DNA of 36,256 nucleotides from Solibacillus palustris (GTDB lineage: Bacteria; Bacillota; Bacilli; Bacillales_A; Planococcaceae). Position 1 is the first letter of the stretch. The number at the start of each line of letters is the position of its first letter. Below are positions 9,588 to 26,502 of this stretch, piece by piece. The notes beneath the pieces are model-generated. The model was not told the DNA's origin and made no database searches. It was given only the letters and a program-made list of their open reading frames with translations. The translations under genes and the position numbers were made by a program. The stretch spans positions 1-36,256 of the forward strand of contig NZ_JAKZFC010000013.1 in assembly GCF_022549215.1 (NCBI RefSeq), read 5' to 3'.

Positions 9588-9872
9588 TTGTTAAGACCAT
9601 TAGGAGATCGCATTATTATCGAACTTGTAGAAGTAGAGGAAAAAACCGCGTTCGGTATCGTTTTACCTGACTCTGCAAAAGAAAAGCCGCAAACTGGTAA
9701 AGTTGTAGCAGTAGGCACGGGTCGAGTTCTTGACAACGGCACTCGTCTTGAGCTTGATGTAAAAGTAGGCGACGAAATTATCTTCTCAAAATTCTCAGGT
9801 ACCGAAGTGAAGTATGACGGCGTAGAATATTTAATTTTACGCGAAAATGATGTACTAGCTATCGTCGGTTAA
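9588..9872 (+). CDS. groES: Co-chaperonin GroES
   Basis: GroES forms the heptameric lid of the GroEL folding chamber. The 94-residue product has the family opening [14 protein letters not shown], a mobile-loop region with the hydrophobic tripeptide ([13 protein letters not shown]), the VVAVGTGR strand and the C-terminal [13 protein letters not shown]. The start is the TTG at 9588: AGGAGG (9573-9578) is 9 bases upstream and the protein then begins at the usual residue. An earlier in-frame TTG (9579) directly abuts the ribosome binding site. CIRCE and a sigma-A promoter lie upstream and groEL follows. Confidence 0.97.
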
Positions 9873-11621
<1,749 letters not shown>

Positions 11622-11655
11622 TCCTTCTTAACAGTTGAATGACATTTTAACTTTG

Positions 11656-11696
11656 AAACATCTCAAATCATTTATTATGATTTGGGATGTTTTTGT
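11656..11696 (+). terminator. Rho-independent terminator of groESL
   Basis: A 16-bp stem (11656-11671 with 11677-11692, AAACATCTCAAATCAT against ATGATTTGGGATGTTT, one G-T pair) and a 5-base loop are followed by T residues. Confidence 0.9.
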
Positions 11697-11751
11697 AACT
11701 TTTTCCAAACTCTTCGGTCTAATGAATAAAAGGAATGTTGGAGGAATTTAC

Positions 11752-12189
11752 ATGAAAAAAGGGTTATTGTTAAGCGTAATTGTATTTTTCTGGCTATTTT
11801 TCATCCCACAGTTGGTGTTTGCGACGAGTTGGGCATTTCCTTTTGTTGTGTGGAATGATTCAATTTATGTCATTACAGATGAAGTCGTGCCACTGGTAGA
11901 ACAAAAAATAGGGAAGGTAACGAGGTATTCAGATATGGAGCAATTCGGGGGGAATTTCTCGAACTATTATCCAAAGGGCACTACTTACTATGCAATAGAA
12001 GGTATAGCGACAACTGAGGCCATTGCGGTTGAACATGAAAAAGGAAAGTATATTAAGGCAGTCTACGAATCACCATATGAATTTCAAGGTAGTGTAATGA
12101 ATAAGGCGAAAATGGCATTCATTGCGATTGTTATTGCCATTATGAGTTTTATTATTTATTATATTTTACCCAAATTTAGAAACAGTTAA
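11752..12189 (+). CDS. Exported protein with C-terminal membrane anchor, unknown function
   Basis: The 145-residue product begins with a signal peptide (MKKGLLLSV..., hydrophobic to about residue 22, ending LVFATS). An extracellular region of roughly 95 residues follows. A C-terminal membrane helix (about 119-138) and a short basic tail (PKFRNS) come last. The outer part is rich in aromatic and acidic residues and has no motif I recognise. ATG 11752 was chosen because TTGGAGG lies 7 bases upstream; a longer reading frame from 11635 would run through the groEL terminator and this ribosome binding site. It follows groESL but is separated by the terminator. Confidence 0.75.
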   Translation: MKKGLLLSVIVFFWLFFIPQLVFATSWAFPFVVWNDSIYVITDEVVPLVEQKIGKVTRYSDMEQFGGNFSNYYPKGTTYYAIEGIATTEAIAVEHEKGKYIKAVYESPYEFQGSVMNKAKMAFIAIVIAIMSFIIYYILPKFRNS

Positions 12190-12209
12190 AATATATGCTC
12201 TTGTGGAAT

Positions 12210-12266
12210 TTAGAGGAAGTATATTTTTGCTAGACGAAATTTTGCATTAATTGATTTATAACTCAT
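12210..12266 (-). CDS. Possible 18-residue peptide with a perfect ribosome binding site
   Basis: On the minus strand AGGAGG (12275-12280) lies 8 bases before an ATG that opens an 18-codon frame ending TAA. The peptide is basic at its start and hydrophobic at its end (MSYKSIN...KIYFL). It may be a tiny gene, a leader, or the relic of a lost gene. The match between ribosome binding site and start is the only evidence. Confidence 0.2.
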   Translation of the reverse strand: MSYKSINAKFRLAKIYFL

Positions 12267-12336
12267 ATCATCAACCTCCTAATAATTACAGAAATTTAAA
12301 ATTAAATAGTTGGACTTATTTATAAAAAGAAGGGGT

Positions 12337-12444
12337 ATGACTATCTTACCTATTATTATTTTTTTAGTGGCGGTAGTTTGTATATTATGTCTTAGATACG
12401 AATTAAACTTTATCATCTATAAATCATATTTATTAATCCAATAA
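12337..12444 (+). CDS. Possible 35-residue single-helix membrane peptide
   Basis: A 35-codon frame begins MTILPIIIFLVAVV, giving one membrane helix (about 4-19) and a mixed tail with Arg, Glu and Lys. AAGGGG lies just before the ATG but the gap is too short for a good ribosome binding site. It sits in the otherwise gene-free 12190-12524 interval. AT-rich DNA often yields such frames by chance. Confidence 0.2.
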   Translation: MTILPIIIFLVAVVCILCLRYELNFIIYKSYLLIQ

Positions 12445-12464
12445 TTTCTAATTTTAATAATATT

Positions 12465-12493
12465 TTGTTTTTTGTAATTACTTATTTTATAAT
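12465..12493 (+). promoter_or_regulatory. Sigma-A promoter of the SLH/SGNH gene
   Basis: TTGTTT (12465-12470) and a perfect TATAAT (12488-12493) are 17 bases apart, 31 bases before the ATG at 12525. Confidence 0.65.
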
Positions 12494-12524
12494 ATGAACA
12501 AGTCATTTTTCTTGGGGGTTATGA

Positions 12525-13898
12525 ATGAAGAAGTTTAGTATATTTGCAGCATTAATTTTAGTATTACAACTTGTACTACCTGTATCTTTATCAGCATCTG
12601 CTGAAGATTCGAGTGAGGTACTTAATTATTTGGCTTTGGGGGATTCCCTTGCAGCAGGTACGAATGAAAAAGGCGAAATTGGCCTTGGTTATGCAGATTA
12701 TATCGCGCAGAGTTTTAGCATTGGGGAAGAACCTATCAATTATAATAAAGGTTTTGCTTTTCCAGGATATACAACGGTAAATGTACTAAATGATATTGAA
12801 AACAATGTAACAAAGCCAATCTATAATTTAGATGGTCAATCAACAAAAACAGCAACGATTCAACAGGCAATCAAAGAAGCTCATTTGATCACATTAAGTG
12901 TTGGCGCAAATGACATGTTAAAAAATGTAACACGTACTGAAGCAGGCGGTTTTTCATATGATGCTGCAGGTGTGCTTCAAACTATCCAACAAGTTTCAAC
13001 AAACTATAAGAAAATTTTCGATAGTATTTATGCATTGAATCCAGAAGTAGATATTATTGTGATGGGCTTGTATAACCCGTTTCTATATTTACAAGATTCA
13101 ACAGTACAAGAGCAGTTAAATACACTAGTTACAACGATAAACAATTCTATTAAAACAGTAGTAGAAGAAAATGAAGGTATTTTTTCAGATGTGTCATCGT
13201 TAATTGCAGAAAACGCAAAAGCATTTTTATCGAATTCAAACAATATTCATCTAAATGAAGCGGGCTATGATGCAGTCGCAGCATTAATGATTGAGGACTA
13301 TTTTGCAGATATTTTAGGGGATTTAGAAGATGAATTTACGGAAATCGTGATCGAGGAAGCACCGTTTACAGATATTAAAAACCATTGGGGTAAAGACTAT
13401 ATTGATGTAGCTTATTCTTATGGTATTATGAAGGGCAATGAAGATGGTACATTTAAGCCAAATGTTAATGTGACACGTGCGCAAGCAGTATCTGTCATTG
13501 TACGAGCATTTGAATTAGAAGCTACGAATGCAGCACCATTTAAAGATATCAGTCAGTATTCACAAGATACTCAAAATGAAATCGCAGCGGCTTATGAGGC
13601 TGGTTTAATTCGTGAAAACGATGGCTACTTTAATCCAAAAGGGCAAATTACACGAGCACAACTAGCATTAATGTTAATGCGCTTATCGAATAGTTTTGTA
13701 GGTGAAGAGTACATTCCAGAATCAATTGCGCCGTTTAAGGATATTGTCAATTTTGATCGTGAAACGCAAGTAGCGATTACATTTTTATATGATATTGGTG
13801 TAGTAGATGGGACGAGTGCAACAACGTTTTCACCAAAAGATAACTTAACACGAGCACAATTAGCGAAGATTTTAGTGTTAGCAATGTCAGAAGAATAA
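12525..13898 (+). CDS. Cell-surface SGNH/GDSL hydrolase-like protein with three SLH domains
   Basis: The 457-residue product has a signal peptide (1-27, ending SASA). An SGNH-like esterase domain spans about 33-265, with nucleophile motif LALGDSLAAG (Ser41), the GAND block (Asn129) and His242 in NNIHLNEAGYDA. Three S-layer-homology repeats lie at about 280-337, 338-400 and 402-455, each ending in a TRAQ-type motif (VTRAQAV, ITRAQLA, LTRAQLA) that binds secondary cell-wall polymer. Oddity: the usual catalytic Asp three residues before the His is Asn239, so the triad looks incomplete. GGGGG lies 6 bases before the ATG. The last 55 bases of the gene are duplicated at 23071-23125, and its natural terminator seems now to be at 23131. 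Confidence 0.9.
   Translation: MKKFSIFAALILVLQLVLPVSLSASAEDSSEVLNYLALGDSLAAGTNEKGEIGLGYADYIAQSFSIGEEPINYNKGFAFPGYTTVNVLNDIENNVTKPIYNLDGQSTKTATIQQAIKEAHLITLSVGANDMLKNVTRTEAGGFSYDAAGVLQTIQQVSTNYKKIFDSIYALNPEVDIIVMGLYNPFLYLQDSTVQEQLNTLVTTINNSIKTVVEENEGIFSDVSSLIAENAKAFLSNSNNIHLNEAGYDAVAALMIEDYFADILGDLEDEFTEIVIEEAPFTDIKNHWGKDYIDVAYSYGIMKGNEDGTFKPNVNVTRAQAVSVIVRAFELEATNAAPFKDISQYSQDTQNEIAAAYEAGLIRENDGYFNPKGQITRAQLALMLMRLSNSFVGEEYIPESIAPFKDIVNFDRETQVAITFLYDIGVVDGTSATTFSPKDNLTRAQLAKILVLAMSEE
13844..13898. repeat. Left copy of 55-bp perfect direct repeat (attL-like)
   Basis: It encodes the last 17 residues and stop codon of the SLH protein (LTRAQLAKILVLAMSEE) and is identical to 23071-23125. The two copies bound 9.2 kb holding the catabolic gene set. 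The left copy keeps the SLH gene intact. Confidence 0.95.
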
Positions 13899-13908
13899 TT
13901 AAAAACAT

Positions 13909-14324
13909 ACTGACCTAATCGTTGAGACACATATTAAATACCCTTTAGGCTGCTTGGTAACCGTATTCTACGGGCGCTGAGTAGCCTAATTTTTTTGTAT
14001 TCTCTCCTCATAATAATACGTCTTCTCGTCTCTTCATTCGCCAATGAATGATGCTTTACAAGCAGCTGTTCTCAGTCTTTAAATGCGAGCGAAAAGACCC
14101 AATGACCGCACTATCCCAACAGTTTCCTCTACGCGACATTTTTGCCCGACAATTCATTTCCTCACTGTAATATAGATACGTTTAGGTTTTGCTCATTTTA
14201 AATCATCTGCTTGATAACTGACTCTTGTCATAAAAAAACACCTCCAAAATAATTAGGTTTATACACTTTTATATATTCCCATTTTAGAGGTGTTTCATAT
14301 TGTCATATTAAATTAGGTTAGTCC
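13909..14324 (-). mobile_element. Internally deleted IS3-family element
   Basis: The ends share an inverted 11-mer: ACTGACCTAAT at 13909-13919 and the complement of ACTAACCTAAT at 14312-14322. Inside, on the minus strand, are the first codons of an orfA-like frame and the decayed 3' end of an orfB-like transposase, with the middle missing. About 415 bp remain of what is normally 1.2-1.5 kb. A second long inverted pair (AAACACCTCCAAAAT and ATTTTAGAGGTGTTT, about 14236-14300) lies near its promoter end. It begins 11 bases after the SLH stop codon, just inside the left repeat. Confidence 0.65.
13945..14231 (-). pseudogene. Remnant IS3-type transposase (orfA start joined to orfB end)
   Basis: ATG 14231 has a GGAGG site (14241-14245) and opens MTRVSYQADDLK, like the start of an IS3-type OrfA, then stops. 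Further on come fragments of the DDE transposase C-terminus: MSRRGNCWDSAVIGSFRSHLKTE matches the usual MSRKGNCWDNAVMESFF...LKTE pattern, and after frameshifts comes KLGYSAPVEYGYQAA. The catalytic Glu of the NAVMESF motif is Gly here. Several stops and a frame change show it is dead. Confidence 0.7.
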
Positions 14325-14527
14325 AGTTTTTGTTACTAATATTAGTCTGTTACTTTATAAAGAAAAATCTTTCGAAACATAAGCACTGTGCGAATAGTGT
14401 TTACAGTTCGTAAAACCCTGAAATTTGGAAGGAAATAGCTTTCATAAATTATGCCCAGACAGTTACCTTAAATGACTACAGTAAGTAGGTGTGAGGTATT
14501 GTCAGTTGTCAATGATACTAGGTGTTG

Positions 14528-15211
14528 TTATTGGATGATGCCTCTACGCAAAGCTTCGGCTACACCTTGTACTCGATTTAACACCTCGAGTTTTCGAATG
14601 GCGGATTGTACGTAATCCTGAACAGTAAATTCGCTAATACCAAGAGATACAGCCATTATTTTCGTACTTTCACCCCAAGACATTCTTTGCAATACGTCAA
14701 TTTCCCGTTTACTAATTTTTTTGGAGTAGCCAGGGTAGTCATCTTCTCCAAATATTTGCCCTAAATGTTGTCCATACATAGCAAGAGATTCCAGAAGGTT
14801 ATCCTTAACCGTAAAAGAATCCGTACTTCCCATGCAGGCATAGCCAACTACGTGGGAGCTATAGCTAATGGGAACTACTATAAGTTCAGTCGTCACGCCA
14901 TTGGTGAATTTTCCCGGTATTTGGTGAATTGATTGAGAATCGATATGCTTAGGCGTTCTTTCCTTTATCGCAGAATAGATAGGAGGCATATTTCGAACAT
15001 CATCTCTCCACTCTTGTAAGGATGATACCCCCTGTTGATCGATACATAATATCCCTTCGCCGACTTTGCTTAATGTCGAATAGAAATAGAGACTTACACG
15101 TGAAAAGTTAAAAATATCCATAAAACCGCGGACGGCAAGTATTTGTTTTTCATAATGAGAAGAAATGGATGAAATAGATTGGATTTGTTTTTTTATAGCT
15201 GTTTCAAGCAT
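14528..15211 (-). CDS. LuxR-family regulator with N-terminal sensor domain
   Basis: The 227-residue product has an N-terminal region (about 1-155) with the secondary-structure pattern of a GAF-like ligand-binding domain (VSLYFYS..., ELIVVPISYSSHVVGYACMGS). A C-terminal LuxR/GerE helix-turn-helix follows (about 165-227: KKISKREIDVLQRMSWGESTKIMAVSLGISEFTVQDYVQSAIRKL). No phospho-acceptor receiver domain is seen, so direct binding of a small molecule is likely. It is divergent from the iron alcohol dehydrogenase and is the only regulator inside the repeats, so it is the probable activator or repressor of the catabolic genes. AGGGGG precedes the ATG. The ligand is unknown. Confidence 0.82.
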   Translation of the reverse strand: MLETAIKKQIQSISSISSHYEKQILAVRGFMDIFNFSRVSLYFYSTLSKVGEGILCIDQQGVSSLQEWRDDVRNMPPIYSAIKERTPKHIDSQSIHQIPGKFTNGVTTELIVVPISYSSHVVGYACMGSTDSFTVKDNLLESLAMYGQHLGQIFGEDDYPGYSKKISKREIDVLQRMSWGESTKIMAVSLGISEFTVQDYVQSAIRKLEVLNRVQGVAEALRRGIIQ

Positions 15212-15352
15212 AAATTTCCCCCTTTAAAACAGGATTCTATATTCACATTATATCAAAAAATTACGAGATTTCAAATTTGCGAAAAACTAAAAGAAACCCT
15301 GCGAAATAACAAATTTATAGTTTATTGAAGATAAAAATTGAACTTTCTACAG

Positions 15353-15382
15353 AAAATCCCCTTAATTTTAGGGGATTTTTTA
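15353..15382. terminator. Terminator-like hairpin in the regulator-dehydrogenase gap
   Basis: AAAATCCCC (15353-15361) and GGGGATTTT (15371-15379) form a stem with a 9-base loop, then TTT. It would work on both strands. It lies 118 bases before the dehydrogenase start and 142 bases before the regulator start, so it may insulate the two or attenuate a long leader. Confidence 0.6.
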
Positions 15383-15451
15383 ATGCGAAAATTAAAACTA
15401 TTATAGTACTTGTAAGCGATTACACACGAAATATTAATTTTATGGACAAAG

Positions 15452-15471
15452 GTCATTGTTAATGTAATGAC
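15452..15471. promoter_or_regulatory. Candidate operator for the LuxR-type regulator
   Basis: GTCATT (15452-15457) and AATGAC (15466-15471) are perfect inverted repeats 8 bases apart, 29 bases before the dehydrogenase start. The 20-bp dyad length suits a dimeric helix-turn-helix protein. The link to the neighbouring regulator is inferred from position. Confidence 0.4.
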
Positions 15472-15500
15472 TCTTAATTTATAGAAAGCAGGTGCAGACA

Positions 15501-16703
15501 ATGAGTAATTCATTTGCAGAATTTCATTTAAGAACAGCGATAACTAGTGGAGCTGGAGCGAGAAGTTTATTACCACAAATGATTACGGGGTTAGGCGGAA
15601 AGCGAGCAATTTTAATTACGGATAAGGGAATTGTTCAAGCAGGAGTTGCTGCCCAAGTTATCGATTTATTTAAAAATTCACAGGAAACAGTAGAACTTGT
15701 TGGTGTATTTGATGAAATTGAACAAGATGCCAAAGCTGAAAATATTACTAAAGCCGTTCAGGTTGCCAAAGAACTTCAAGCGGATGCGCTAATTGCATTG
15801 GGCGGTGGAAGTGTGCTAGATGCAGTAAAAGGCATTAAATGGATGTTATATAAAGGCTATGAAAATACAGAGGAAGTGTTTCATACGAGTATTAGAGAAT
15901 TTCCTCCAGAAGCTCAGCCAATGGATATTCCACATGTAGCAATTCCTACGACAGCAGGAACGGGTGCAGAAGTGTCGCCAATGGCTGTTATTTATAATGA
16001 AAAACTAGGTGTAAAAGTAGTGGTAAGGACTCCTTATCTGAATGCAGACATAGCAATTTTGGATCCTGAACTAACAGTAGGACTACCTCCGAAAATTACA
16101 GCATTTACAGGAATGGATGCCTTGACACATGCAATAGAAGGTTACTTTTCATCAACAGCTACACCATTTACTGATTCTTATGCGTTGTATTCTGCCAAGT
16201 TGATTGCAGAAAATTTACCAATAGTTGTTAAGGAGGGCTCTAACGTAGAAGCTAGAGGCAATATGTTAATGGCGAGTGCAATGGCAATAACGGCATTTGG
16301 TTTCGGCAATAATGGAGTGCCTGTGCATAATATGGCACATGTATTCGGTGCCAAGTTTAGAATTCCACATGGTCTAGCAAACGCGGTACTGCTTCCAAAT
16401 GTGATGGCGGCTTTGCCTGAATTATATTTACCAAAAATCAAGCATTTTGCTGAGACGTTGGGAATTGAAACATCGTCATCTGATCCACAAGAATGTTTGA
16501 CAAAGGTAATTCAATTCATTCGTGATCTGCGTCAACAAGTCAGTTTATCAGATACATTTTCTGAATTTAATCTAGATTCTACTATTCTTGATTACATCGT
16601 GGAGGAAGTGCAAAGTGATTCGGCATCGGGTAAATTCCTCATTCCAGCGGATATTATTATGAAAGTGACGAAAGAAGTTGCGGGATTTATACAAGTAAAG
16701 TGA
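15501..16703 (+). CDS. Iron-containing alcohol dehydrogenase
   Basis: This is a group III (Fe2+) NAD(P)-dependent alcohol dehydrogenase of 400 residues. The N-terminal dinucleotide domain has ALGGGSVLDAVKG (99-111) and PTTAGTGAE (149-157). The metal ligands expected from the FucO family are all present: Asp206 and His210 (GMDALTHAIEG), His276 (VHNMAH) and His290 (IPHGLANA). ATG 15501 is preferred over an in-frame GTG at 15492 because AGGTG lies 6 bases before it. It is the first of a co-directional series with the hydrolase, Baeyer-Villiger monooxygenase and aldehyde dehydrogenase. In that context it probably oxidises an omega-hydroxy acid or an alcohol substrate; the specificity is not shown by sequence. 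Confidence 0.9.
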   Translation: MSNSFAEFHLRTAITSGAGARSLLPQMITGLGGKRAILITDKGIVQAGVAAQVIDLFKNSQETVELVGVFDEIEQDAKAENITKAVQVAKELQADALIALGGGSVLDAVKGIKWMLYKGYENTEEVFHTSIREFPPEAQPMDIPHVAIPTTAGTGAEVSPMAVIYNEKLGVKVVVRTPYLNADIAILDPELTVGLPPKITAFTGMDALTHAIEGYFSSTATPFTDSYALYSAKLIAENLPIVVKEGSNVEARGNMLMASAMAITAFGFGNNGVPVHNMAHVFGAKFRIPHGLANAVLLPNVMAALPELYLPKIKHFAETLGIETSSSDPQECLTKVIQFIRDLRQQVSLSDTFSEFNLDSTILDYIVEEVQSDSASGKFLIPADIIMKVTKEVAGFIQVK

Positions 16704-16739
16704 ACCTATAACCTATTCGAAGGAGGTATAAATTCAATC

Positions 16740-17666
16740 ATGCTAGATACTCAAGCAAAGAATTTTCTACAAATGATGGAGGGTAAAAAACCAACTTCTT
16801 CTATGACACCTGAAGAAAACCGTAATAATGGGGCAGCACTACAAAAACTGGCGGGACTAGCAGAGTCAGTAGCAAAAGTAGAAGAGCATTCGGTTCCTGT
16901 GAAAGATGGAAAAATCAAGGTGAGGATTTATACCCCTGAAGGTGAAGGAGATTTCCCTATATTTATTTATCTTCATGGAGGCGGATGGGTTTTAGGGGAT
17001 CTTGATACAGTCGATATACCGTGTCGTAGCATTGCAAATCAAGCGGAGTGTATAGTCGTGTCGGTTGATTATCGTAGAGCTCCTGAATACAAGTTTCCAG
17101 TTCCTCTTGAAGATTGTTATGAAGCGGCATTATGGGTAGCTAAAAATGCAGGTGAATGGCAAGGAGATTCGACGAAAATTTCTATAGGTGGGGACAGTGC
17201 GGGTGGAAACTTAGCAACATGTGTCGCATTGAAGGCAAGAGATGAGCAAGGGCCAACTTTCGTGTCCCAAATTTTGATCTATCCAGTAACGGATCTCTCT
17301 TTTAGCACAAATTCGTACAAGGAAAATGGAGAGGGGTATTTCCTTACGCAGGATAGTATGGAATGGTTTGCGCGACATTATATCAACACAGAAGAAGACA
17401 AGTTGAACCCTTATGTCGCACCTCTACTAACGGAAGATCTTAGTAATCTCCCACCAGCTGTAGTTATTACAGCTGGGTATGACCCACTTTGTGATGAAGG
17501 ATTGGCCTATGCGAATCGATTGCAGGAGGCGGGAATTCAGGTGGAATACACTTGCTACGAAGGAATGATTCACGGATTTTTCTGGATGGCGGGAATTATG
17601 GACAAAGGTAAGCAGGCTATTGAGCAAGTATCCCGCCATTTACAAGAGTCCTTTACGAGTAAATAA
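16740..17666 (+). CDS. Alpha/beta hydrolase (hormone-sensitive-lipase type esterase)
   Basis: The 308-residue product has the family's oxyanion motif HGGG (79-82), nucleophile elbow GDSAGG (Ser153), acid Asp248 (GYDPLCDEG) and His278 (MIHGFFW), so it is a complete HSL-type carboxylesterase. No signal peptide is seen, so it acts in the cytosol. AAGGAGGT (16720-16727) lies 12 bases before the ATG, slightly far. It is placed between an alcohol dehydrogenase and a Baeyer-Villiger monooxygenase, whose product is an ester or lactone. The likely job is therefore opening that lactone to a hydroxy acid, the role of ChnC in cyclohexanol degradation. Confidence 0.88.
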   Translation: MLDTQAKNFLQMMEGKKPTSSMTPEENRNNGAALQKLAGLAESVAKVEEHSVPVKDGKIKVRIYTPEGEGDFPIFIYLHGGGWVLGDLDTVDIPCRSIANQAECIVVSVDYRRAPEYKFPVPLEDCYEAALWVAKNAGEWQGDSTKISIGGDSAGGNLATCVALKARDEQGPTFVSQILIYPVTDLSFSTNSYKENGEGYFLTQDSMEWFARHYINTEEDKLNPYVAPLLTEDLSNLPPAVVITAGYDPLCDEGLAYANRLQEAGIQVEYTCYEGMIHGFFWMAGIMDKGKQAIEQVSRHLQESFTSK

Positions 17667-17707
17667 AATTACGATAAATGAAATTATGAATTTAGGGAGG
17701 AATAAAA

Positions 17708-19348
17708 ATGACAAAAAAAGAACAAATCATTAATTTAGATGCAGTTGTTATCGGAGCAGGTTTCTCAGGAATGTATATGCTATATCGCTTACGTGAAGCT
17801 GGATTTTCTGTCCGTGCTTTCGAAGCGGCAGCAGGTGTTGGAGGCGTATGGTACGCGAACCGCTATCCTGGCGCACGCTGTGACTCGGAAAGTATCATTT
17901 ATAACTATACGTTTTCTGATGAGCTTCTACAGGAATGGACATGGACTACTCGATTCCCAGCTCAAGAAGAAATTTTAAGATACCTTAATTTCGCAGCAGA
18001 TAAGCTAGATCTACGCCGTGATATTCAGTTCAATACACGCGTTACATCTGCTCATTATAACGAAATTAGTAAAAAGTGGGATGTTAAATTAGATGATGGT
18101 ACGAACATTACTGCCACATATTTCATCACTGGAGTAGGCTGCCTATCTGCATCAAATATTCCTAACTTTAAAGGATTAAATAGCTTTGAAGGGGAGGCAT
18201 ATCACACAGGTCGCTGGCCACATGAGAAAGTAGATTTCAGTAATAAACGTGTTGGTTTGATTGGTACGGGTTCAAGCGGTGTTCAATCGATTCCAGTTAT
18301 TGCTGAAGAAGCAGGTTATCTGAATGTTTTCCAAAGAACGCCAGCGTATAGTACTCCTGCGAGAAACTATGTATATGACGAAGAATTTATTCGTAAAACA
18401 AAAGAAAATTATGAAGAGATTAAACAACAAATTCGTTGGTCTTCGATGGGTTATCTTCATACGACGGTTAATAATCGATCAGCATTAGATGATACACCCG
18501 AAGAGCGCGAGCAACAATACCAAAAGATTTGGGAGAGAGGCGGTTTAGGGTTTAGTCAAACGTATAGCGACCTAATGGTAAACGAAGAAGCGAATGAAAC
18601 AGCTAGTGAATTTATTCGCGCTAAAATCGATAGCGTTGTTAAAGACCCTGAGGTAGCAAAAAAATTAAAACCAAGCTATTTCTACTCTGCAAAACGACCT
18701 GTTATTGACACGAATTATTATGAGACATTTAACCGTGATAACGTTACTTTAGTAGATGTAAAGGCGACGCCAATTGTTGAAATTACACCTAAAGGAATTA
18801 AAACTTCAGAAGGTGAATATGAGTTGGATGTTATTGTTTTCGCGACAGGCTATGACGCGATGACAGGACCATTATTTAAAATTGATATTCGTGGAAAAGA
18901 CGGTGTGTCACTTAAAGATAAATGGGCTGATGGCACACAAACGAGAACTTACCTTGGTATTGCCAATGCTGGTTTCCCAAACATGTTTATGATCACGGGT
19001 CCAGAAAGTCCTTCAGTATTATCAAATGTGCCTGTATCAATTGAACAGCATGTTGAGTGGATTGGTGATTGTATCGAATATTTACGTGAAAATAAATTGG
19101 ATACAATTGAGGCCAATGGAGAAGCGGAAGAAGCATGGAGTAAAAATTGTTTAGAAATCGCTCAATCTAGCCTTCTTACAAAGGTTGAGTCTTGGTATAC
19201 GGGTGCAAATATTGAAGACAAGCCACGTGGATTCCCTATTTATACTGGTGGCGTTGGGAACTACCGCAAAATCTGTGATGAAGTTACAGCTAAAGGTTAT
19301 GAAGGGTTTACATTAACACCTGCACGCTCTAAAGAGACTATTTCTTAA
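17708..19348 (+). CDS. Baeyer-Villiger monooxygenase, cyclohexanone monooxygenase type
   Basis: This is a type I flavin (FAD, NADPH) monooxygenase of 546 residues, close to the 543 of Acinetobacter cyclohexanone monooxygenase. It has the FAD motif GAGFSG (16-21), the Baeyer-Villiger fingerprint FEGEAYHTGRWP (160-171, FxGxxxHxxxWP) and the NADPH motif GTGSSG (186-191), followed by a conserved ATG-type motif (FATGYDAMTG). From memory, stretches such as QFNT-VTSAHYNE, FNRDNV-L-DVKA-PIVEIT and NPNMFM-GP closely follow that enzyme, which supports a cyclic ketone as substrate. It inserts oxygen next to the carbonyl to give a lactone. GGGAGG lies upstream. A hairpin separates it from the next gene. 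Confidence 0.93.
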   Translation: MTKKEQIINLDAVVIGAGFSGMYMLYRLREAGFSVRAFEAAAGVGGVWYANRYPGARCDSESIIYNYTFSDELLQEWTWTTRFPAQEEILRYLNFAADKLDLRRDIQFNTRVTSAHYNEISKKWDVKLDDGTNITATYFITGVGCLSASNIPNFKGLNSFEGEAYHTGRWPHEKVDFSNKRVGLIGTGSSGVQSIPVIAEEAGYLNVFQRTPAYSTPARNYVYDEEFIRKTKENYEEIKQQIRWSSMGYLHTTVNNRSALDDTPEEREQQYQKIWERGGLGFSQTYSDLMVNEEANETASEFIRAKIDSVVKDPEVAKKLKPSYFYSAKRPVIDTNYYETFNRDNVTLVDVKATPIVEITPKGIKTSEGEYELDVIVFATGYDAMTGPLFKIDIRGKDGVSLKDKWADGTQTRTYLGIANAGFPNMFMITGPESPSVLSNVPVSIEQHVEWIGDCIEYLRENKLDTIEANGEAEEAWSKNCLEIAQSSLLTKVESWYTGANIEDKPRGFPIYTGGVGNYRKICDEVTAKGYEGFTLTPARSKETIS

Positions 19349-19384
19349 AAGACTGTACGTAAGACCAAATAATTTTTATTATTC

Positions 19385-19419
19385 CGGAAAATCCAACGAT
19401 ACTTCGTTTGGATTTTCCG
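19385..19419 (+). other. Intercistronic hairpin
   Basis: CGGAAAATCCAACGA (19385-19399) pairs with TCGTTTGGATTTTCCG (19404-19419) with one bulged base and a 4-base loop. No T-run follows. It could stabilise the upstream mRNA or cause partial termination between the monooxygenase and aldehyde dehydrogenase genes. Confidence 0.55.
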
Positions 19420-19451
19420 CTAGATATAAAACCGTAAAAGGAGCGTTGAAT

Positions 19452-20870
19452 ATGTATATCAATGGAGAATGGTTAAAAACAGATAAAGTATTTGAAGTAA
19501 ATAATCCGGCTACAGGCGAAACAGTGGATACAGTTTACTTTGTCGGCGAAGAAGAGACAAATGCTGCTATTCAAGCTGCAAAGGATGCATTTCCGGAGTG
19601 GTCAGCGCTACCAGCAGAACAGCGAGGTTCATATTTAACGAAAATTGCAGTGAAATTAGGCGAAAAAAAGGAAGAAATGGCTCAAATTATTACGATGGAA
19701 ATGGGGAAAACAATTCATCATGCGCGACAAGAAGTAGGTTCAACGATTGCCTTCTTCCAATGGTATGCCGAAGAAGCACGCAGAATTTACGGAGATGTTA
19801 TTCCTCCATCAATTCCTAACAAGCGTATTCAAGCGATTCGTCAACCTATTGGTGTAGTGGCAGCTATTACTCCTTGGAATTTCCCACTATCTATGGCGGC
19901 TAGAAAATTAGGACCAGCTTTAGCGACAGGATGTACAGTGATTTTAAGACCATCAAGAGAAGCTCCGTTATCTTCTGTTGCATTGTTTAAAATTATTGAT
20001 GAAGTCGGGTTACCTAAAGGTGTAGCGAATCTCGTTATTGGACAATCAGGCCCTATTGTTAACACGATTATGAACAGTAATGTCGTAAAAAAAGTTTCCT
20101 TTACCGGTTCAACAGAAGTTGGAAAAATTCTTATCGAACAATCTGCAAAAACTGTGAAACGAGTGTCAATGGAATTAGGTGGGCATGCACCATTTATCGT
20201 TTTTGATGATGCTGATATCGATTTAGCAGTGAGCGGCTTAATAGTAAGTAAATTTGGCTCTAATGGACAACAATGTATTTGTCCAAACCGAATTTATGTA
20301 CAAGAAAATATATATGAAGAATTTGCCGAGAAGCTGAAAGAAAAAGTTCAGGCAATCAAAGTAGGAAATGGACTGGATGAACAAAATGGAATGGGCCCAT
20401 TAATTTATGGAGAGGCAATCGACAAAGTACAAGAGCAGGTAGATGATGCTGTTCTTTTAGGAGCTTGTGTCTTGAATGGTGGGAAGAGGTTGACAGGAGA
20501 TGCCTACGCGAATGGTCATTTCTATCCTCCAACTGTATTAGCAGATGTTACGGATGAGATGTTAATTACGAGAGAAGAAACATTTGGACCTGTTATTCCA
20601 TTAATTAAGTTCAAGAGCGAAGAAGAAGTGATTGAAAGAGCAAATGCTATTGAATATGGACTTGCCTCTTATTTCTATACAAAAGATCTTTCGCGCAAAT
20701 ACCGTGTTTCTGAACAATTGGAATACGGCATGGTCGGAGTGAATGACGCCATTCCATTTGCAGTACAAGTACCATTTGGTGGTGTGAAAGAGAGCGGTAT
20801 GGGTCGTGAAGGTGGTAAATATGGAATGGATGATTATTTAGACATAAAAATGATTTCGGTACAAATTTAA
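19452..20870 (+). CDS. NAD(P)-dependent aldehyde dehydrogenase
   Basis: The 472-residue product is a standard ALDH-superfamily enzyme of the succinate-semialdehyde dehydrogenase size class. It has ITPWNFP (139-145), FTGSTEVG (217-224), the general base Glu241 in MELGG, and catalytic Cys275 in NGQQCICPNR. Late EETFGPV and FGGVKESGMGREGG motifs follow. Oddities: the usual Lys of the cofactor-binding VxKPxxE motif is Arg166 (ILRPSRE), and ELGGN is ELGGH. ATG 19452 has AAGGAG 8 bases upstream. In this cluster it would oxidise the omega-oxo acid made by the alcohol dehydrogenase to a dicarboxylate (ChnE role), but other aldehydes are possible. Confidence 0.9.
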   Translation: MYINGEWLKTDKVFEVNNPATGETVDTVYFVGEEETNAAIQAAKDAFPEWSALPAEQRGSYLTKIAVKLGEKKEEMAQIITMEMGKTIHHARQEVGSTIAFFQWYAEEARRIYGDVIPPSIPNKRIQAIRQPIGVVAAITPWNFPLSMAARKLGPALATGCTVILRPSREAPLSSVALFKIIDEVGLPKGVANLVIGQSGPIVNTIMNSNVVKKVSFTGSTEVGKILIEQSAKTVKRVSMELGGHAPFIVFDDADIDLAVSGLIVSKFGSNGQQCICPNRIYVQENIYEEFAEKLKEKVQAIKVGNGLDEQNGMGPLIYGEAIDKVQEQVDDAVLLGACVLNGGKRLTGDAYANGHFYPPTVLADVTDEMLITREETFGPVIPLIKFKSEEEVIERANAIEYGLASYFYTKDLSRKYRVSEQLEYGMVGVNDAIPFAVQVPFGGVKESGMGREGGKYGMDDYLDIKMISVQI

Positions 20871-20897
20871 CTTCTTGTAGCAGTTGGTTCATCTAGT

Positions 20898-20929
20898 AAG
20901 GAAGGATGTAGTTTAATCCTTCCTTCTTT
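20898..20929 (+). terminator. Probable terminator after the aldehyde dehydrogenase gene
   Basis: A perfect 10-bp stem AAGGAAGGAT/ATCCTTCCTT (20898-20907 with 20916-20925) and an 8-base loop are followed by CTTTGTA. The short T-run suggests partial read-through into the transporter gene. Confidence 0.55.
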
Positions 20930-20987
20930 GTACCTTCAATATTTAAAAGAAGAAATAGCAATATCCATATTTAAGGGGGGAATATCT

Positions 20988-22265
20988 ATGCGTTGGATTG
21001 TTTTAACCATTCTATTTTTTGGCTTTTTAATTAATTTTGCAGACAAGAGTGTTGTGGGGCTTGCTGTAGGTCCCTTAATGGAAGAATTGAATTTGAGTTA
21101 TGCACAATGGGGACTTATTGGTAGTAGTTTTTTCTGGATATTCCCTGTAGCTGCAGTTTTCATCGGATTTATTACTGATAAAGTTTCACCAAAAAAGATC
21201 ATTGCTTTTATGCTTTTATCATGGTCACTTCTCCAATTTGGGGGCTATATAATCGGTGGTTTTGCAACACTTCTTTTGTACCGTATTTTCCTTGGGTTTG
21301 CTGAAGGTGGTTATGCTCCAGCATCCTTGAGACAATTATTTTCTTATTTCCCCCTGGCTATGCGGGCGCGAGTAACGACTATATTCACTCTTGGTTCAAC
21401 AGTAGGGGCTTATGCAGTTGCGCCGCTAGTTGTACTTTTGCTTCAATTAGTAGGTTGGAGACACTCGTTTGCAATCATGGGGTTATTTAGTTTGGTTCTG
21501 TTAGTTATTTGGGTTGTCGTAATTCCAAGTAAAACGCCAGAGCTTGATGAACTGGAAGTGAAGAATGATTCTGCTCCGAAAAGGAAAGTTCCTTGGTCCG
21601 AATTGTTCTCAGTTTTGCGCTCGCGAACTAGTATATTTACGCTATTTATGACTTTCGGATTCTTTTGTCTATCGAGTTGGATGCAGATTTGGATGCCTTT
21701 ATACTTTTTAGAAGTGACAAAAATATCGCAAATGGAAATGGCATATGCCACATTGACAGTCGGATTAACTTCTATGATTGTATCGCTATCGATGGCCACA
21801 ATTTCTGATCGTGTATTTAAAAAAACACAAAGCTTACGTGAGGGACGTGTGAAGGTAACAGGAATGGGCATGCTTATTGCCGGTTTAGTATTTGGATCAC
21901 TCTATTTTACGAACTCAGTCGTATGGGCTATCTTAGGAATTACATTGGCCTATGGATTTAGTTTCCTAATACTTTCTACATCTCATATCATTATTGGTAG
22001 TCAGCTTCCTGAACGTACATCAACACTTTCTGGAGTGATTGTTGCTTTTTCGAATGTTGCAGCAGCTTTATGCGCAATGGCCGTTGGATTTATTATACAA
22101 AGTGTCGGCGTTGAGAACTCAATTCATGGGTTTAAATATTCATTTCTAATGATTTCTGCGATTATGGTAATCGTTGCAATACTATTTATGAGCTTTGTAT
22201 ATCCAGAAGGAAAAAAACAAAAGGCTGAATTGGTTAATATAGAAAAAGCAACGTCAAGTTCTTAA
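20988..22265 (+). CDS. Major facilitator superfamily transporter
   Basis: The 425-residue product has about 12 membrane helices with a charged central loop (about 185-205, LDELEVKNDSAPKRK). Typical MFS motifs are present: FADKSVVGLAVGPL in helix 1, the GFITDKVSPKK loop between helices 2 and 3, and FAEGGYAPASLR in helix 4. These resemble anion:cation symporter (ACS) family carriers of organic acids. ATG 20988 was chosen because AAGGGGGG is directly upstream (20973-20980), and it starts at the first helix; the longer frame from 20928 would overlap the terminator. Its place between catabolic enzymes suggests uptake of the substrate or export of an acid intermediate. Confidence 0.88.
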   Translation: MRWIVLTILFFGFLINFADKSVVGLAVGPLMEELNLSYAQWGLIGSSFFWIFPVAAVFIGFITDKVSPKKIIAFMLLSWSLLQFGGYIIGGFATLLLYRIFLGFAEGGYAPASLRQLFSYFPLAMRARVTTIFTLGSTVGAYAVAPLVVLLLQLVGWRHSFAIMGLFSLVLLVIWVVVIPSKTPELDELEVKNDSAPKRKVPWSELFSVLRSRTSIFTLFMTFGFFCLSSWMQIWMPLYFLEVTKISQMEMAYATLTVGLTSMIVSLSMATISDRVFKKTQSLREGRVKVTGMGMLIAGLVFGSLYFTNSVVWAILGITLAYGFSFLILSTSHIIIGSQLPERTSTLSGVIVAFSNVAAALCAMAVGFIIQSVGVENSIHGFKYSFLMISAIMVIVAILFMSFVYPEGKKQKAELVNIEKATSSS

Positions 22266-22313
22266 TATAGTATGGATTTGATAAAAGTAGAAGTCAATGA
22301 GGAGGAAGAAAAA

Positions 22314-23075
22314 ATGGATTTTGAAGGAAAAGTTGTATTAATCACAGGGGCAGCAGGAGGAATTGGTAAAGAAACGGCTCGTTTATTTGCCGAACAAGGA
22401 GCGAAACTGTCATTAGTCGATATGGATGCCCAAGCATTAGAATCGCTTGTCAATGAATTAGACCTAAAGGATTATTTGCTACAAACTGCTGATGTGACAA
22501 GTGAAGAACAAGTGCAGAATTTCGTTTTGCAAACGAAGGAGAAGTACGGAAAAATTGATGTATTCTTTAATAATGCGGGAATAGAAGGAAAGATTGCTTC
22601 TATAGTAGAAACGACAGAGGAGAATTTAGATAAGGTTTTAAGCGTTAATATTAAAGGTGTCTTCTTTGGTTTAAAGCATGTGATGGCTACTATGATGAAG
22701 CAAAAATTTGGAAGTATCATTAATACTTCATCTATTACGGGGTTAAAAGGTTCTCTAGGTTTAGCTCCTTACTCGGCTTCTAAACATGCCGTGCTTGGTT
22801 TGACTAAAACAGCTGCCCTAGAATCAGCGGGAATGGGTATTCGAGTAAACGCAATTTGCCCTGGGTATGTCGAAACTCGAATGATGCAATCCATTGAGCA
22901 AGGTAGAGGACCAGAGTATGCGAATCAAATGAGAGAAAGAGCATTATCGAAAGTACCTATGAATCGATATGCGCAATCACATGAAATTGCGGAATTGGTA
23001 TTATTTTTAGCCTCAGATAAAGCTACTTTTATTACAGGTAGTCACTATCTTATTGATGGAGGGAATCTAGCTTAA
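22314..23075 (+). CDS. Short-chain dehydrogenase/reductase (cyclic alcohol dehydrogenase candidate)
   Basis: This is a classical SDR of 253 residues: cofactor motif TGAAGGIG (11-18), NNAG (86-89), Asn112, Ser140, Tyr153-x3-Lys157 (YSASK), PGYVET and a C-terminal GSHYLIDGG. Asp36 after the second beta strand (LVDMD) points to NAD(H) preference. ATG 22314 has GAGGAGG just upstream; the ATG at 22272 is possible but has no ribosome binding site. In this cluster it is a good candidate for oxidising a cyclic alcohol to the ketone used by the monooxygenase (ChnA role). Its TAA stop (23073-23075) lies inside the right-hand 55-bp repeat, so the gene was joined to host DNA exactly at its end. Confidence 0.9.
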   Translation: MDFEGKVVLITGAAGGIGKETARLFAEQGAKLSLVDMDAQALESLVNELDLKDYLLQTADVTSEEQVQNFVLQTKEKYGKIDVFFNNAGIEGKIASIVETTEENLDKVLSVNIKGVFFGLKHVMATMMKQKFGSIINTSSITGLKGSLGLAPYSASKHAVLGLTKTAALESAGMGIRVNAICPGYVETRMMQSIEQGRGPEYANQMRERALSKVPMNRYAQSHEIAELVLFLASDKATFITGSHYLIDGGNLA

Positions 23076-23125
23076 CACGAGCACAATTAGCGAAGATTTT
23101 AGTGTTAGCAATGTCAGAAGAATAA
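23071..23125. repeat. Right copy of 55-bp perfect direct repeat (attR-like)
   Basis: It is identical to 13844-13898, the 3' end of the SLH gene, but here it has no start codon or upstream gene body. The base before it differs from the left copy (G against A), as does the base after it (A against T), so identity is exactly 55 bp. It supplies the stop codon of the SDR gene and is followed at once by a strong terminator. Confidence 0.95.
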
Positions 23126-23130
23126 AAAAT

Positions 23131-23170
23131 GAGCGGTAAGTGGACGGGGATCCATTTACCGCTCGTTTTA
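23131..23170 (+). terminator. Rho-independent terminator, probably the original SLH-gene terminator
   Basis: GAGCGGTAAgTGGA (23131-23144) pairs with TCCAtTTACCGCTC (23151-23164) apart from one mismatch, with a GTTTTAT tail. It starts 5 bases after the right repeat copy, the spacing expected of a terminator for the SLH gene before the island entered. Confidence 0.85.
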
Positions 23171-23175
23171 TATCA

Positions 23176-23199
23176 TTGCAAAAACGGGGATTTTTGCAA
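23176..23199 (-). terminator. Probable terminator of the carboxylesterase gene
   Basis: TTGCAAAAA (23176-23184) and TTTTTGCAA (23191-23199) form a perfect 9-bp stem with a 6-base loop, 23 bases past the esterase stop. No separate T-run is seen, so confidence is moderate. Confidence 0.5.
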
Positions 23200-23222
23200 G
23201 GGGACACAACAATAGTATTACC

Positions 23223-23969
23223 TTAATTTTTCCACTTTAAGCCTTCAAAGAAACGATAAATTTCTTCAAAAACTAATTCACGCTCTTTACCTAATGTTAA
23301 AATATGACCAGAGTTAATGAAAGTTTTGACAGACTTGATGCGAGATTTAACTGAACTATAAATTAAGTCAGCACTTTCGCAGTAATATTCATCGTCTTCA
23401 AGTCCACGTAAAATGTGAACAGGTGTTTGAATGACATTTAATTTTTCGCTTGTTTCGTTAATCATGCTTTGCAAATAATTTAACGAAGGCATTTTCATTA
23501 ACTCAGCAATTTTTGTACGGCTATCGATAGCTTCGTCGTACGTACCAGATAATTTTTTATAGTTAATTGCATAATCGACGATCCGATTTTGTAAGCTATC
23601 TGTAGATTTTGACGTAGCAGGAGCAGACATCGTAACAATCGCTTGTGTTGGACGTTCTTCACCAAGTTTTAATGAGAAAATACCACCAAGAGAAACACCG
23701 GCTACAGCAATTTCATCGTAGCCACGATTTTTTAACTCATCGTAGCCTTCAATTACACTATTCCACCATTCAATTGGGTTTGATTGAATTAATAGATCAG
23801 GACCAGCACCATGGCCTTTATATAAAGGGGCATGCACCGTATAGTTACGATCAGCTAAATATTTTCCTAAACGTTTTACATCATTTGTATTACCGGTAAA
23901 ACCGTGTAATAAAAGAACAGCCCGATTTCCCGCTTCAATTGTAAAAGGTTTCGGCGCGATGAGTTTCAT
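23223..23969 (-). CDS. Carboxylesterase (Est30/YvaK type)
   Basis: The 248-residue product is an alpha/beta hydrolase with LLHGFTGN (oxyanion region), nucleophile motif GVSLGG, acid Asp in GLEDDEYY and the C-terminal SGHILT histidine. Length and motifs fit the monoacylglycerol-lipase-like carboxylesterases of Bacillales (Est30), cytosolic enzymes that hydrolyse short-chain esters. It lies just outside the right repeat and is convergent with the catabolic genes, so it is probably part of the ancestral chromosome and not of the island. It is divergent from the LysR gene (194-base gap), which may regulate it. Confidence 0.88.
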   Translation of the reverse strand: MKLIAPKPFTIEAGNRAVLLLHGFTGNTNDVKRLGKYLADRNYTVHAPLYKGHGAGPDLLIQSNPIEWWNSVIEGYDELKNRGYDEIAVAGVSLGGIFSLKLGEERPTQAIVTMSAPATSKSTDSLQNRIVDYAINYKKLSGTYDEAIDSRTKIAELMKMPSLNYLQSMINETSEKLNVIQTPVHILRGLEDDEYYCESADLIYSSVKSRIKSVKTFINSGHILTLGKERELVFEEIYRFFEGLKWKN

Positions 23970-24163
23970 TGTCTTTCGGCTCCTTCGTGAAGTGAATTAT
24001 GTCTATTTTGTGATTTTTTTAAAAAAACTATTGAAAAATAAAATAAATTTTGATATGAAAACTATTTGCTAACGATTATTATATAGCTAATAAACCATAA
24101 GTACAATTTATTATTCTTATTATATTGATTCAAAAAAGTTATTGATGATGTGAGGTATAAAAA

Positions 24164-25051
24164 ATGGAGATTGAACAGCTTCAATATTTCAAAACCGTTG
24201 CTACAATGGAACATATGACGCGAGCTGCTGAAGTTTTAGCCATTTCCCAACCGGCGTTAAGTAAGTCTATTGCGAGCATCGAGCAACAGCTAGGTGTTCC
24301 GTTATTTAATCGTGAAGGCCGCTCAATATATTTAAACCGTTTTGGTGAGCTTTTTTTACAAAGTGTAGAAATTATTTTAGAAGAATATGAACGTATTCGA
24401 GAGGAATTTGAGGATATTATAAAGCCAGGATCGGGTGAAGTATCATTTGGTTTTATTCATACTTTAGGCATGGAAATTGTGCCAGAGCTCATTGCAGCAA
24501 CGACAAAGCAATTTCCGAACATGCAATTTTCTTTAACACAGGCAACCTCTCTCAATTTATTGAAGCGTTTGGAGGAAGGGGCGATTGATTTATGCCTTTC
24601 ACAAAAAATTGAATCAAAAGTTATTGATATTGAAACAGAGGAACTATTCGTTGAAGAGCTGTTTGTGATTGTCCCAACAACTCATCCATTATCAATGCGT
24701 ACAGAAGTGAAAATAGAAGATATTCAAAACGAAACATTCATTGCCATTAAAAAAGGAAACTCACTGCGTCAATTAGTTGATGAATTATTTTTAGATGCAG
24801 GGATCGAATTGAAAACCGCTTTTGCGGCAGAGGAAATGCACACTGTAGCTGGCTTTGTTGGCGCGGGTATGGGCATTTCACTTATTCCCAATATTAAGGG
24901 GCTAGATCATTACAAAGTGAAGCGACTTAAATTAGATCCACCTTGTTATCGTTCTGTAGGTGTTTCATGGGCAAAAAATCGTTATTTACCACCAGCAGCT
25001 ACGGAGTTCAAGCAATATTTAGTCGATTATTTTAAGCATAGAGATGGGTGA
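24164..25051 (+). CDS. LysR-family transcriptional regulator
   Basis: The 295-residue product has the N-terminal LysR helix-turn-helix (1-60: LQYFKTVATMEHMTRAAEVLAISQPALSKSIASIEQQLGVPLFNR) and a periplasmic-binding-like effector domain (about 90-290). The GAGMGISLIP segment typical of the family is in the second half. GAGGT lies before the ATG. It is divergent from the carboxylesterase gene and joined to the Sel1-repeat gene downstream by four bases. The effector and targets cannot be read from sequence. Confidence 0.92.
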   Translation: MEIEQLQYFKTVATMEHMTRAAEVLAISQPALSKSIASIEQQLGVPLFNREGRSIYLNRFGELFLQSVEIILEEYERIREEFEDIIKPGSGEVSFGFIHTLGMEIVPELIAATTKQFPNMQFSLTQATSLNLLKRLEEGAIDLCLSQKIESKVIDIETEELFVEELFVIVPTTHPLSMRTEVKIEDIQNETFIAIKKGNSLRQLVDELFLDAGIELKTAFAAEEMHTVAGFVGAGMGISLIPNIKGLDHYKVKRLKLDPPCYRSVGVSWAKNRYLPPAATEFKQYLVDYFKHRDG

Positions 25052-25055
25052 TGTT

Positions 25056-25874
25056 ATGCAAACAGAGCAGCAATTTAATGAGTGGCTTTATCAACAGAAT
25101 TTGGATAAAGAGTATTGGCTAGAGCACTATGAACTGTCGAAAGAAGGTGCCTTACAATCTATTGTTGCTATTGCGTTATTATACAAAGCGCACAAACATT
25201 TTGAACATGCAAGCTTATGGTTACAAAAAGCTGTGGCACTTGGCCATGTTGAGGCGATGTATGAGCTAGGTAATGTTTATTTTGAAATGGAAGAAGAAGA
25301 ACATGCATTTATGATGTATGCACGGGCAGCACAGCTAGGGCATCCAGATGCGATGAACAATTTAGCTGATATGTATTTAAACGGTGAAGGAACAGTGATC
25401 AATGAACAAATGGCTTTACAGTGGTTTGTAAAGGCAGCTGAAAATGGTGTTGTAGAAGCGATGTTTACACTGGGGATGATGTATGAGCAAGGTATAGGGT
25501 CAGGGATAGATGAACAAACGGCGATTCATTATTATGTATTATCGGCTAATGGTGGTGATGTAGAAGGTTTGTACCGGATGGGGATGATCTATTTCGAAGG
25601 TGAGCTTGGGCAGCAACCAAATTTACCGCGAGCGATTCAATATTTTGAACAAGCAGCCGAGCAGCTTCATATCGATGCGTTATTCAACCTAGGTTATATA
25701 TATGAGCTTGAATGGGGCATGGGCACTAAAGCAATTCATTATTATAAACAGGCCAGTTTTGCTGGGGACTTAGGGGCGACAAAAAAATTAGTCGATTTTT
25801 TCGAACGTACGAATGATGAACAACTTCACAAATGGCAGCAAAAATTAACGCAGCTCCAACATGAAAGAAAGTGA
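25056..25874 (+). CDS. Sel1-like repeat (SLR) protein
   Basis: The 272-residue product contains five to six Sel1-type repeats of about 36 residues from residue 60 on (for example AMNNLADMYLNGEGTVINEQMALQWFVKAAENG and AMFTLGMMYEQGIGSGIDEQ...). These fold as a helical solenoid and mediate protein contacts. No signal peptide or catalytic domain is seen. ATG 25056 follows GGGTGA, the end of the LysR gene; ATG 25044 would overlap LysR by 8 bases and is an alternative. Tight coupling suggests co-transcription with the regulator. The partner is unknown. Confidence 0.82.
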   Translation: MQTEQQFNEWLYQQNLDKEYWLEHYELSKEGALQSIVAIALLYKAHKHFEHASLWLQKAVALGHVEAMYELGNVYFEMEEEEHAFMMYARAAQLGHPDAMNNLADMYLNGEGTVINEQMALQWFVKAAENGVVEAMFTLGMMYEQGIGSGIDEQTAIHYYVLSANGGDVEGLYRMGMIYFEGELGQQPNLPRAIQYFEQAAEQLHIDALFNLGYIYELEWGMGTKAIHYYKQASFAGDLGATKKLVDFFERTNDEQLHKWQQKLTQLQHERK

Positions 25875-26005
25875 AATTATATCAATATATTCATAAATGA
25901 AACCGTTTCCGTTAAACAGAATAAAAGTGAAGAATTTTAGGTTTAATATGGAAAAAATCTAGGAACTATATAAGTGAAAGAAAGTAGTCTGGGAGGGAAA
26001 TTTTT

Positions 26006-26488
26006 ATGTTTATGTTTTCAATTCAACACGCCAATTCTAATCAAGATGAGAGTACTATTCGAAGTTTAAATCAAGTGTTAGCTGAGCAACGAGAAAATTT
26101 AACAACATTATGTACAATTGTGGAATACTTAAAAGGATATGGCCAAACAGGATTAGAAAGTAAAGATGTCATTAAGTACAACCAAAAAATTCAAATTATG
26201 AATGATAAACAAATGAATCGTTACAATAAAATTGATGAATTAATTAATACAAATATTTTTCAGATAAAAAAGGGTAAGACGACAGATAACACGGCAATCG
26301 TTTATGGGAAAGAGGTCCGCAAGATTGAATCAGGCATCCGTACGTTAAAATTATTTGTAAGTGATGCAATTAATATGTTAGATCCAGAACAACATTTAAA
26401 TAATCGAAGTGAAGAACGTATTCAATATTTTGAAAAACGTTCTGCTGCTATTGAGGCAGAAATGATTACATTAGCAAAAATTCTTTAA
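26006..26488 (+). CDS. Helical protein of unknown function
   Basis: The 160-residue product is hydrophilic and looks almost wholly alpha-helical. Likely coiled-coil stretches lie at about 14-45 and 105-158, and an Asn/Lys/Gln-rich middle at about 60-95. There is no signal peptide, membrane helix or cysteine pair beyond one Cys. GGAGG (25992-25996) is 9 bases before the ATG. It is monocistronic with its own terminator. I do not recognise the family; the pattern could suit a cytosolic structural or signalling helper. Confidence 0.75.
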   Translation: MFMFSIQHANSNQDESTIRSLNQVLAEQRENLTTLCTIVEYLKGYGQTGLESKDVIKYNQKIQIMNDKQMNRYNKIDELINTNIFQIKKGKTTDNTAIVYGKEVRKIESGIRTLKLFVSDAINMLDPEQHLNNRSEERIQYFEKRSAAIEAEMITLAKIL

Positions 26489-26502
26489 TAGTTTGATGAG
26501 AG

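Follow-up and report, generated by a model that had tools for sequence, protein, structure and literature searches.

In a survey of variable segments in three species, 10–18% of the segments were flanked by direct repeats, and the authors ascribe much of such variation to illegitimate or homologous recombination (PMC2884548). As in the case described here, DNA that varies from strain to strain is bracketed by direct repeats while the rest of the locus is conserved. The segments are small, however, and 66–94% of their repeats are shorter than 30 bp, against a cargo of 9.2 kb and a repeat of 55 bp in the present case. In the events described in an Escherichia coli study, foreign DNA was likewise joined by an illegitimate end, or part of the target was duplicated around the insert (PMC3240628). 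That study reports duplications of 109–950 bp in 14 sequenced clones and 0–1 nt of homology at four illegitimate joints, as against about 50 bp and CTTAA here. The microcin H47 island is also small, lies between direct repeats and lacks an integrase of its own; its repeats (148 and 144 bp) are 76% identical, its excision was shown experimentally, and its right edge apparently does not fall at a cargo stop codon, unlike that of the island here (PMC3191183). What is unusual at the present locus is the length of repeat and cargo, together with the concerted change of the repeat copies. No paper on this island was found in the literature.

An insertion behind the SLH gene

The window, i.e. the whole stretch of 36,256 nucleotides analysed, belongs to genome G000 of Solibacillus palustris, of which it makes up all of contig C5. 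It was compared within a set of 16 genus genomes: G000 itself, the same-species genome G001, and 14 others that served as relatives and outgroups. The features discussed below are as follows.

12525..13898, +: SLH/SGNH (GDSL-lipase) gene, complete, the insertion target (Pfam SLH and Lipase_GDSL_2; full-length orthologue in 16/16 genus genomes)
13844..13898, +: left repeat copy (last 17 codons and stop of the SLH gene)
13899..13905, no strand: TTAAAAA between SLH stop and IS relic (comparison with the G012 empty site)
13906..14325, −: remnant of an IS3-type insertion sequence, 420 of ~1290 bp remaining (family matches, G012 copies)
14326..14527, no strand: ~200 bp of unassigned sequence separating the relic from the regulator gene (neither L076 nor L077 is homologous left of 14521)
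14528..15211, −: LuxR-type (GerE domain) regulator, divergent (Pfam, orthologous cassettes)
15492..16703, +: iron-containing alcohol dehydrogenase (domain models, orthologous cassettes)
16740..17666, +: LipP1-type esterase, hormone-sensitive lipase family (NF058653, 415.5 bits, cut-off 350)
17708..19348, +: type I Baeyer-Villiger monooxygenase (phenylacetone monooxygenase as closest relative of solved structure; type I motif FEGEAYHTGRWP)
19446..20870, +: aldehyde dehydrogenase, nearest to the succinate-semialdehyde type but below that model's cut-off (domain models)
20928..22265, +: MFS transporter (domain models)
22272..23075, +: SDR dehydrogenase, stop codon (23073-23075) inside the right repeat copy (Pfam, orthologue alignment)
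23071..23075, +: CTTAA, common to SDR end and SLH tail, junction microhomology (comparison with L076 and L077)
23071..23125, +: right repeat copy, without gene body
23124..23168, +: hairpin found after the SLH gene in relatives, probable terminator, now behind the cassette (−26.9 kcal/mol, z −7.7)
23223..23969, −: alpha/beta hydrolase (esterase), right-hand neighbour in every genus genome searched (Pfam, orthologue search)

A first-pass annotation of this DNA had proposed that a perfect 55-bp direct repeat brackets 9.2 kb and that only the left copy belongs to a full gene. Both points were confirmed: the copies lie at 13844-13898 and 23071-23125 with a spacing of 9227, and the SLH/SGNH gene body continues from the left one only. 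When extended to 13841-13898 and 23068-23125, the two segments are identical at 57 of 58 bases. An exact match over 55 bp is not chance. With up to three mismatches allowed, the 41-bp core of the 55-mer occurs twice in G000, twice in G001 and in none of the 14 other genus genomes, which rules out the possibility, raised in the annotation, that it is a repeat common across SLH genes. On contig C40 of G000, a further stretch that matches over 33 bp at 94% appears by eye to be an SLH-type motif of another gene. An assembly artefact was ruled out, as the one-contig genome G001 has the identical structure. We also followed a proposal to look for other elements ending in the same 55-mer, and the 14 relatives, viral contigs and plasmids yielded none: a 29-bp part of the repeat had no exact match in viral contigs, the repeat region had no match among plasmids, and against phages it gave just two 29-bp matches at E 0.6, which is chance level.

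Orthologues of the SLH gene (full-length, at least 61% identity) and of the esterase (at least 86%) were present in all 16 genus genomes searched; the best database match of the SLH protein, at 97%, is from Solibacillus daqui. The gap between the two protein matches is 101–209 bases in the 14 other genomes, 9214 in G001 and 9330 in G000. Since SLH gene, terminator hairpin and esterase adjoin in 14/14 other genus genomes, with G001 carrying the island, the island is a real insertion with an empty site. Such an uninterrupted junction had been predicted for island-free relatives, and the arrangement obtained by collapsing the repeats, an intact SLH gene and terminator by the esterase, equals their layout. 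No other insert was seen at the SLH–esterase site in these 14 genomes. The direct repeat at the 3′ end of the SLH gene leaves that gene complete.

The right repeat copy runs into the hairpin at 23124-23168, and none of 200 shuffles folded as well. Counterparts behind the SLH stop fold in 14/14 relatives (−21.2 to −31.5 kcal/mol over 70 bases), in agreement with the initial description of a strong terminator after the right copy that resembles the SLH gene's own. A simple terminator scan gave 6 sites against 7.0 expected, with neither this hairpin nor that of the IS relic (see below) among them.

In order to gauge the age of the insertion, G000 and G001 were aligned. Identity was 96.4% over 14204-27796, which covers most of the island, and 97.2% over 9676-14086. 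Synonymous divergence was 0.06–0.18 in the seven cassette genes and 0.05–0.17 in six flanking genes, one of which is cut by the end of the stretch. In age the island looks to match the divergence of the two strains; the cassette genes, with dN/dS of ~0.08–0.28, look maintained. Because the IS relic is common to both strains and synonymous divergence is similar inside and outside the island, the data point to one old insertion event; two independent insertions are ruled out on the same grounds.

The two junctions and the repeat copies

The left end is made up of the SLH gene, TTAAAAA and then the IS3-type relic (13906-14325), which starts 7 bp after the SLH stop and was absent from the first-pass description. 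TTAAAAA resembles the empty-site spacer of G012, TTAAAA, and is perhaps native, A-rich spacers being weak evidence. The ends of the relic were set from matches in several family genomes and from three ~1.29 kb copies in G012, and its relatives are insertion sequences of Planococcaceae. Whereas the three G012 copies have 3-bp target duplications (GGT, TTT and TTT, by eye), none surrounds the relic, which has AAA on the left and GTT on the right. The relic holds no intact transposase, with 420 of ~1290 bp left and longest ORFs of 30–40 aa, and a search of G000 for another copy gave none among the 3 of 19 candidates that were scored. Near the end of the relic a hairpin at 13945-13995, followed by seven T, is present in G001 as well; the fold of 13899-14010 reaches −31.0 kcal/mol (z −4.4). 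This hairpin has perhaps been retained as a replacement SLH terminator.

At the right end, the nucleotide sequence is homologous to the related cassettes of Neobacillus rhizophilus (L076) and Cytobacillus citreus (L077) up to 23075 and no further; the SDR stop codon ends with this base. In Neobacillus the SDR gene ends in GGCTTAA with unrelated DNA behind it, in the window AGCTTAA leads into the SLH tail, and the intact SLH gene has AACTTAA at the corresponding place. Because the Neobacillus SDR end already reads CTTAA, 5 of the 55 bp would be microhomology and ~50 duplicated host sequence; the five do not have to derive from the target. Not every orthologue has the overlap, as the Cytobacillus SDR gene ends in GGCATAATAA, which lacks CTTAA. 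At least 5 bp are shared at 0.7% of random junctions in the window (100,000 trials). With CTTAA at the SDR stop, the right joint looks like one made without a recombinase site, since such joints often fall on a short shared stretch.

The 55-mer differs between G000 and G001 at positions 10 and 48, and in each genome the two copies are identical. The chance of independent evolution giving the same two places and letters is ~7e-5. The outgroup letters vary at position 10. Position 48 is A in 13 of 14 outgroups and G in both G001 copies, so the G in G001 is derived; the fourteenth outgroup, G010, is out of register as its gene stops earlier, and the tails in G007 and G011 carry indels. Since each strain has the same letters in both copies while the strains differ at 2 of 55 positions, the pattern seems to need recombination between the copies after insertion, a reading based on two sites in two genomes. 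Such homologous exchange should be rare, because the repeat has 55 bp and the requirement cited for Bacillus subtilis is ~70 bp of homology (PMC4381049).

Routes of arrival

At a probability of roughly 0.6, we favour the view that a foreign catabolic cassette, with an IS3-type insertion sequence at its front, was captured behind the SLH gene in a single event of illegitimate, microhomology-assisted recombination without an integrase. The capture would have taken place in the ancestor of the species holding G000 and G001. The DNA may have been joined by template switching, by homology-facilitated illegitimate recombination, or by one crossover of a circle that had closed illegitimately; each of the three would duplicate ~50 bp of the SLH tail and leave the same footprint. 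Circle integration by homology, another mechanism listed in the first-pass annotation, is one possible variant of such a capture. Thereafter the cassette operon appears to have ended on the former SLH terminator, the SLH transcript may be terminated by the replacement hairpin from the IS relic, and rare homologous exchange, either gene conversion or sister-chromosome crossover, would have kept the repeat copies alike. The empty site, both junctions, the CTTAA overlap, the flank-like divergence of the two strains and the paired repeat changes all agree with capture. Against it stand a joint that also suits other routes, the Cytobacillus SDR end without CTTAA, the failure to find a donor locus, the unassigned 200 bp on the left, and a repeat shorter than the ~70 bp cited for later exchange. 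Microhomology is no hallmark of the homology-facilitated route, as three of four such joints in the E. coli study shared no base at all and the fourth shared 1 nt (PMC3240628).

The first-pass annotation had read the structure as an att-like insertion. An insertion that leaves the SLH gene complete is supported by the 14/14 empty sites; an attachment site is not supported, since the right edge is the SDR stop joined over 5 bp, no recombinase was found among the scanned ORFs and the site is otherwise empty in 14/14 relatives. Pfam searches of the seven cassette genes and of two antisense ORFs of at least 90 aa detected no recombinase, and to this extent the earlier statement that no integrase lies inside is upheld. 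We thus regard it as unlikely that the repeats represent attL and attR, bracketing a genomic island that has lost its integrase or is served by one in trans, as reported for microcin H47, even though a perfect repeat and insertion at a gene's 3′ end with the gene kept complete are what such integration would give, and excision of an integrase-less island in recA-deficient cells is on record (PMC3191183). In the 55-mer no 8–13 bp arms at 5–9 bp spacing with more than two-thirds complementarity were seen (the arm test gave no positive score, which leaves its shuffle control uninformative). A 29-bp part of the repeat had no exact match in viral contigs, and the repeat region had none in plasmids and just the two chance-level hits in phages. 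Furthermore, both copies would not become alike through conservative att recombination alone. That feature would follow if the repeats were in use, with the island leaving and returning by recombination between them via RecA or a trans-acting recombinase. We consider this improbable; if true, the island would act as a mobile, integrase-free cargo unit, and the footprint it leaves would be copies that change in concert within each strain.

The same structure would result if a circle or plasmid with a longer SLH piece had entered by one crossover and a later deletion between CTTAA sites had trimmed the right copy to its last 55 bp. A PCR product for the duplication in 56 of 60 E. coli clones, read by the authors as single crossovers of a circle (PMC3240628), gives this course some precedent. 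It requires two events, no further SLH remnant lies left of the right copy, and foreign SDR homology runs to 23075, so we give it little chance. If the IS3-type element itself had transposed the cassette, in one-ended or composite fashion, the relic at 13906-14325 would be what is left of the active element. This is suggested by a relic end 7 bp behind the SLH stop and by the relic's kinship with Planococcaceae insertion sequences. We hold it to be very unlikely: there is a single relic, on the left side only, the 3-bp target duplication of the G012 copies is missing, and IS transposition does not create a 55-bp duplication.

None of the findings indicates a mobile element of a new kind; if capture is the right reading, this is a known kind of event that is unusually well documented. 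As a natural example it is clean: a whole catabolic operon was captured with no mobility gene in sight, and the empty site, donor-type cassettes and both junctions are all at hand. As the island looks att-bracketed, it warns against taking every perfect gene-end repeat as an attachment site. The paired changes may also provide a natural gauge of exchange between repeats of 55 bp that lie 9 kb from each other and fall below the ~70 bp cited for B. subtilis (PMC4381049).

Cassette content, donor search and neighbouring loci

N. rhizophilus and C. citreus have the same seven genes in the same order, with 61–85% protein identity; an acyl-CoA synthetase-like gene adjoins the Neobacillus cassette. 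The gene set fits conversion of an alcohol to a ketone, oxygen insertion to give an ester or lactone, hydrolysis, and then oxidation to an acid. The cassette is probably a borrowed catabolic set for ketone breakdown. Clusters of the chn type (cyclohexanol/cyclohexanone) similarly unite a Baeyer-Villiger monooxygenase, an esterase, alcohol and aldehyde dehydrogenases, an SDR and a regulator, but their gene order and regulator type differ from those of the cassette.

Searches at class, order and family level and among plasmids, phages and viral contigs found no donor locus. Among the named relatives of the monooxygenase, one from Peribacillus butanolivorans is nearest (94%). At class level, 7 of 398 genomes matched at E 1e-100, namely G000 and six at 69–71%. 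Three orders gave 0/39, 0/15 and 0/396 genomes, in searches run without a positive control and, for the last, with few candidates scored per genome. In the family, 65 of 261 genomes had an SDR match at E 1e-70, G001 alone being close (97%) and the next at 68%. Partial matches at 60–80% occurred in 126 plasmid records, none covering 80% of the query; phages gave none, and the 8 pattern matches in viral contigs included no relative.

Other Solibacillus genomes contain fragments of Baeyer-Villiger monooxygenase genes, one of 89 residues with one stop (L070, G007:C1:2325102-2325368) and one of 56 residues (L072, G014:C1:3482861-3483028). Full-length relatives of the enzyme (55–62%) are found in Solibacillus genomes G004, G006, G011 and G014. 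Four proteins of 867–868 aa (P0078, P0106, P0109 and P0111) have Pfam domains that suggest a natural fusion of esterase and Baeyer-Villiger monooxygenase.

An Rfam scan of 11600-24500 returned no element at the gathering score. Two hairpins behind the SLH gene, within 23142-23205, have the identical loop CGGGGA: GGACGGGGATCC, which is the terminator, and GCAAAAACGGGGATTTTTGC. In the genus alignment both loops and the second hairpin are conserved far better than spacer DNA, and a regulatory role for the pair is possible. Elsewhere in the window, 26945-28240 encodes a protoglobin joined to a methyl-accepting chemotaxis signalling domain, and neighbouring genes at 1359-2063 and 2491-3519 have TsaD-type domains and lie beside a TsaE gene, an arrangement that is usual for tRNA threonylcarbamoylation.
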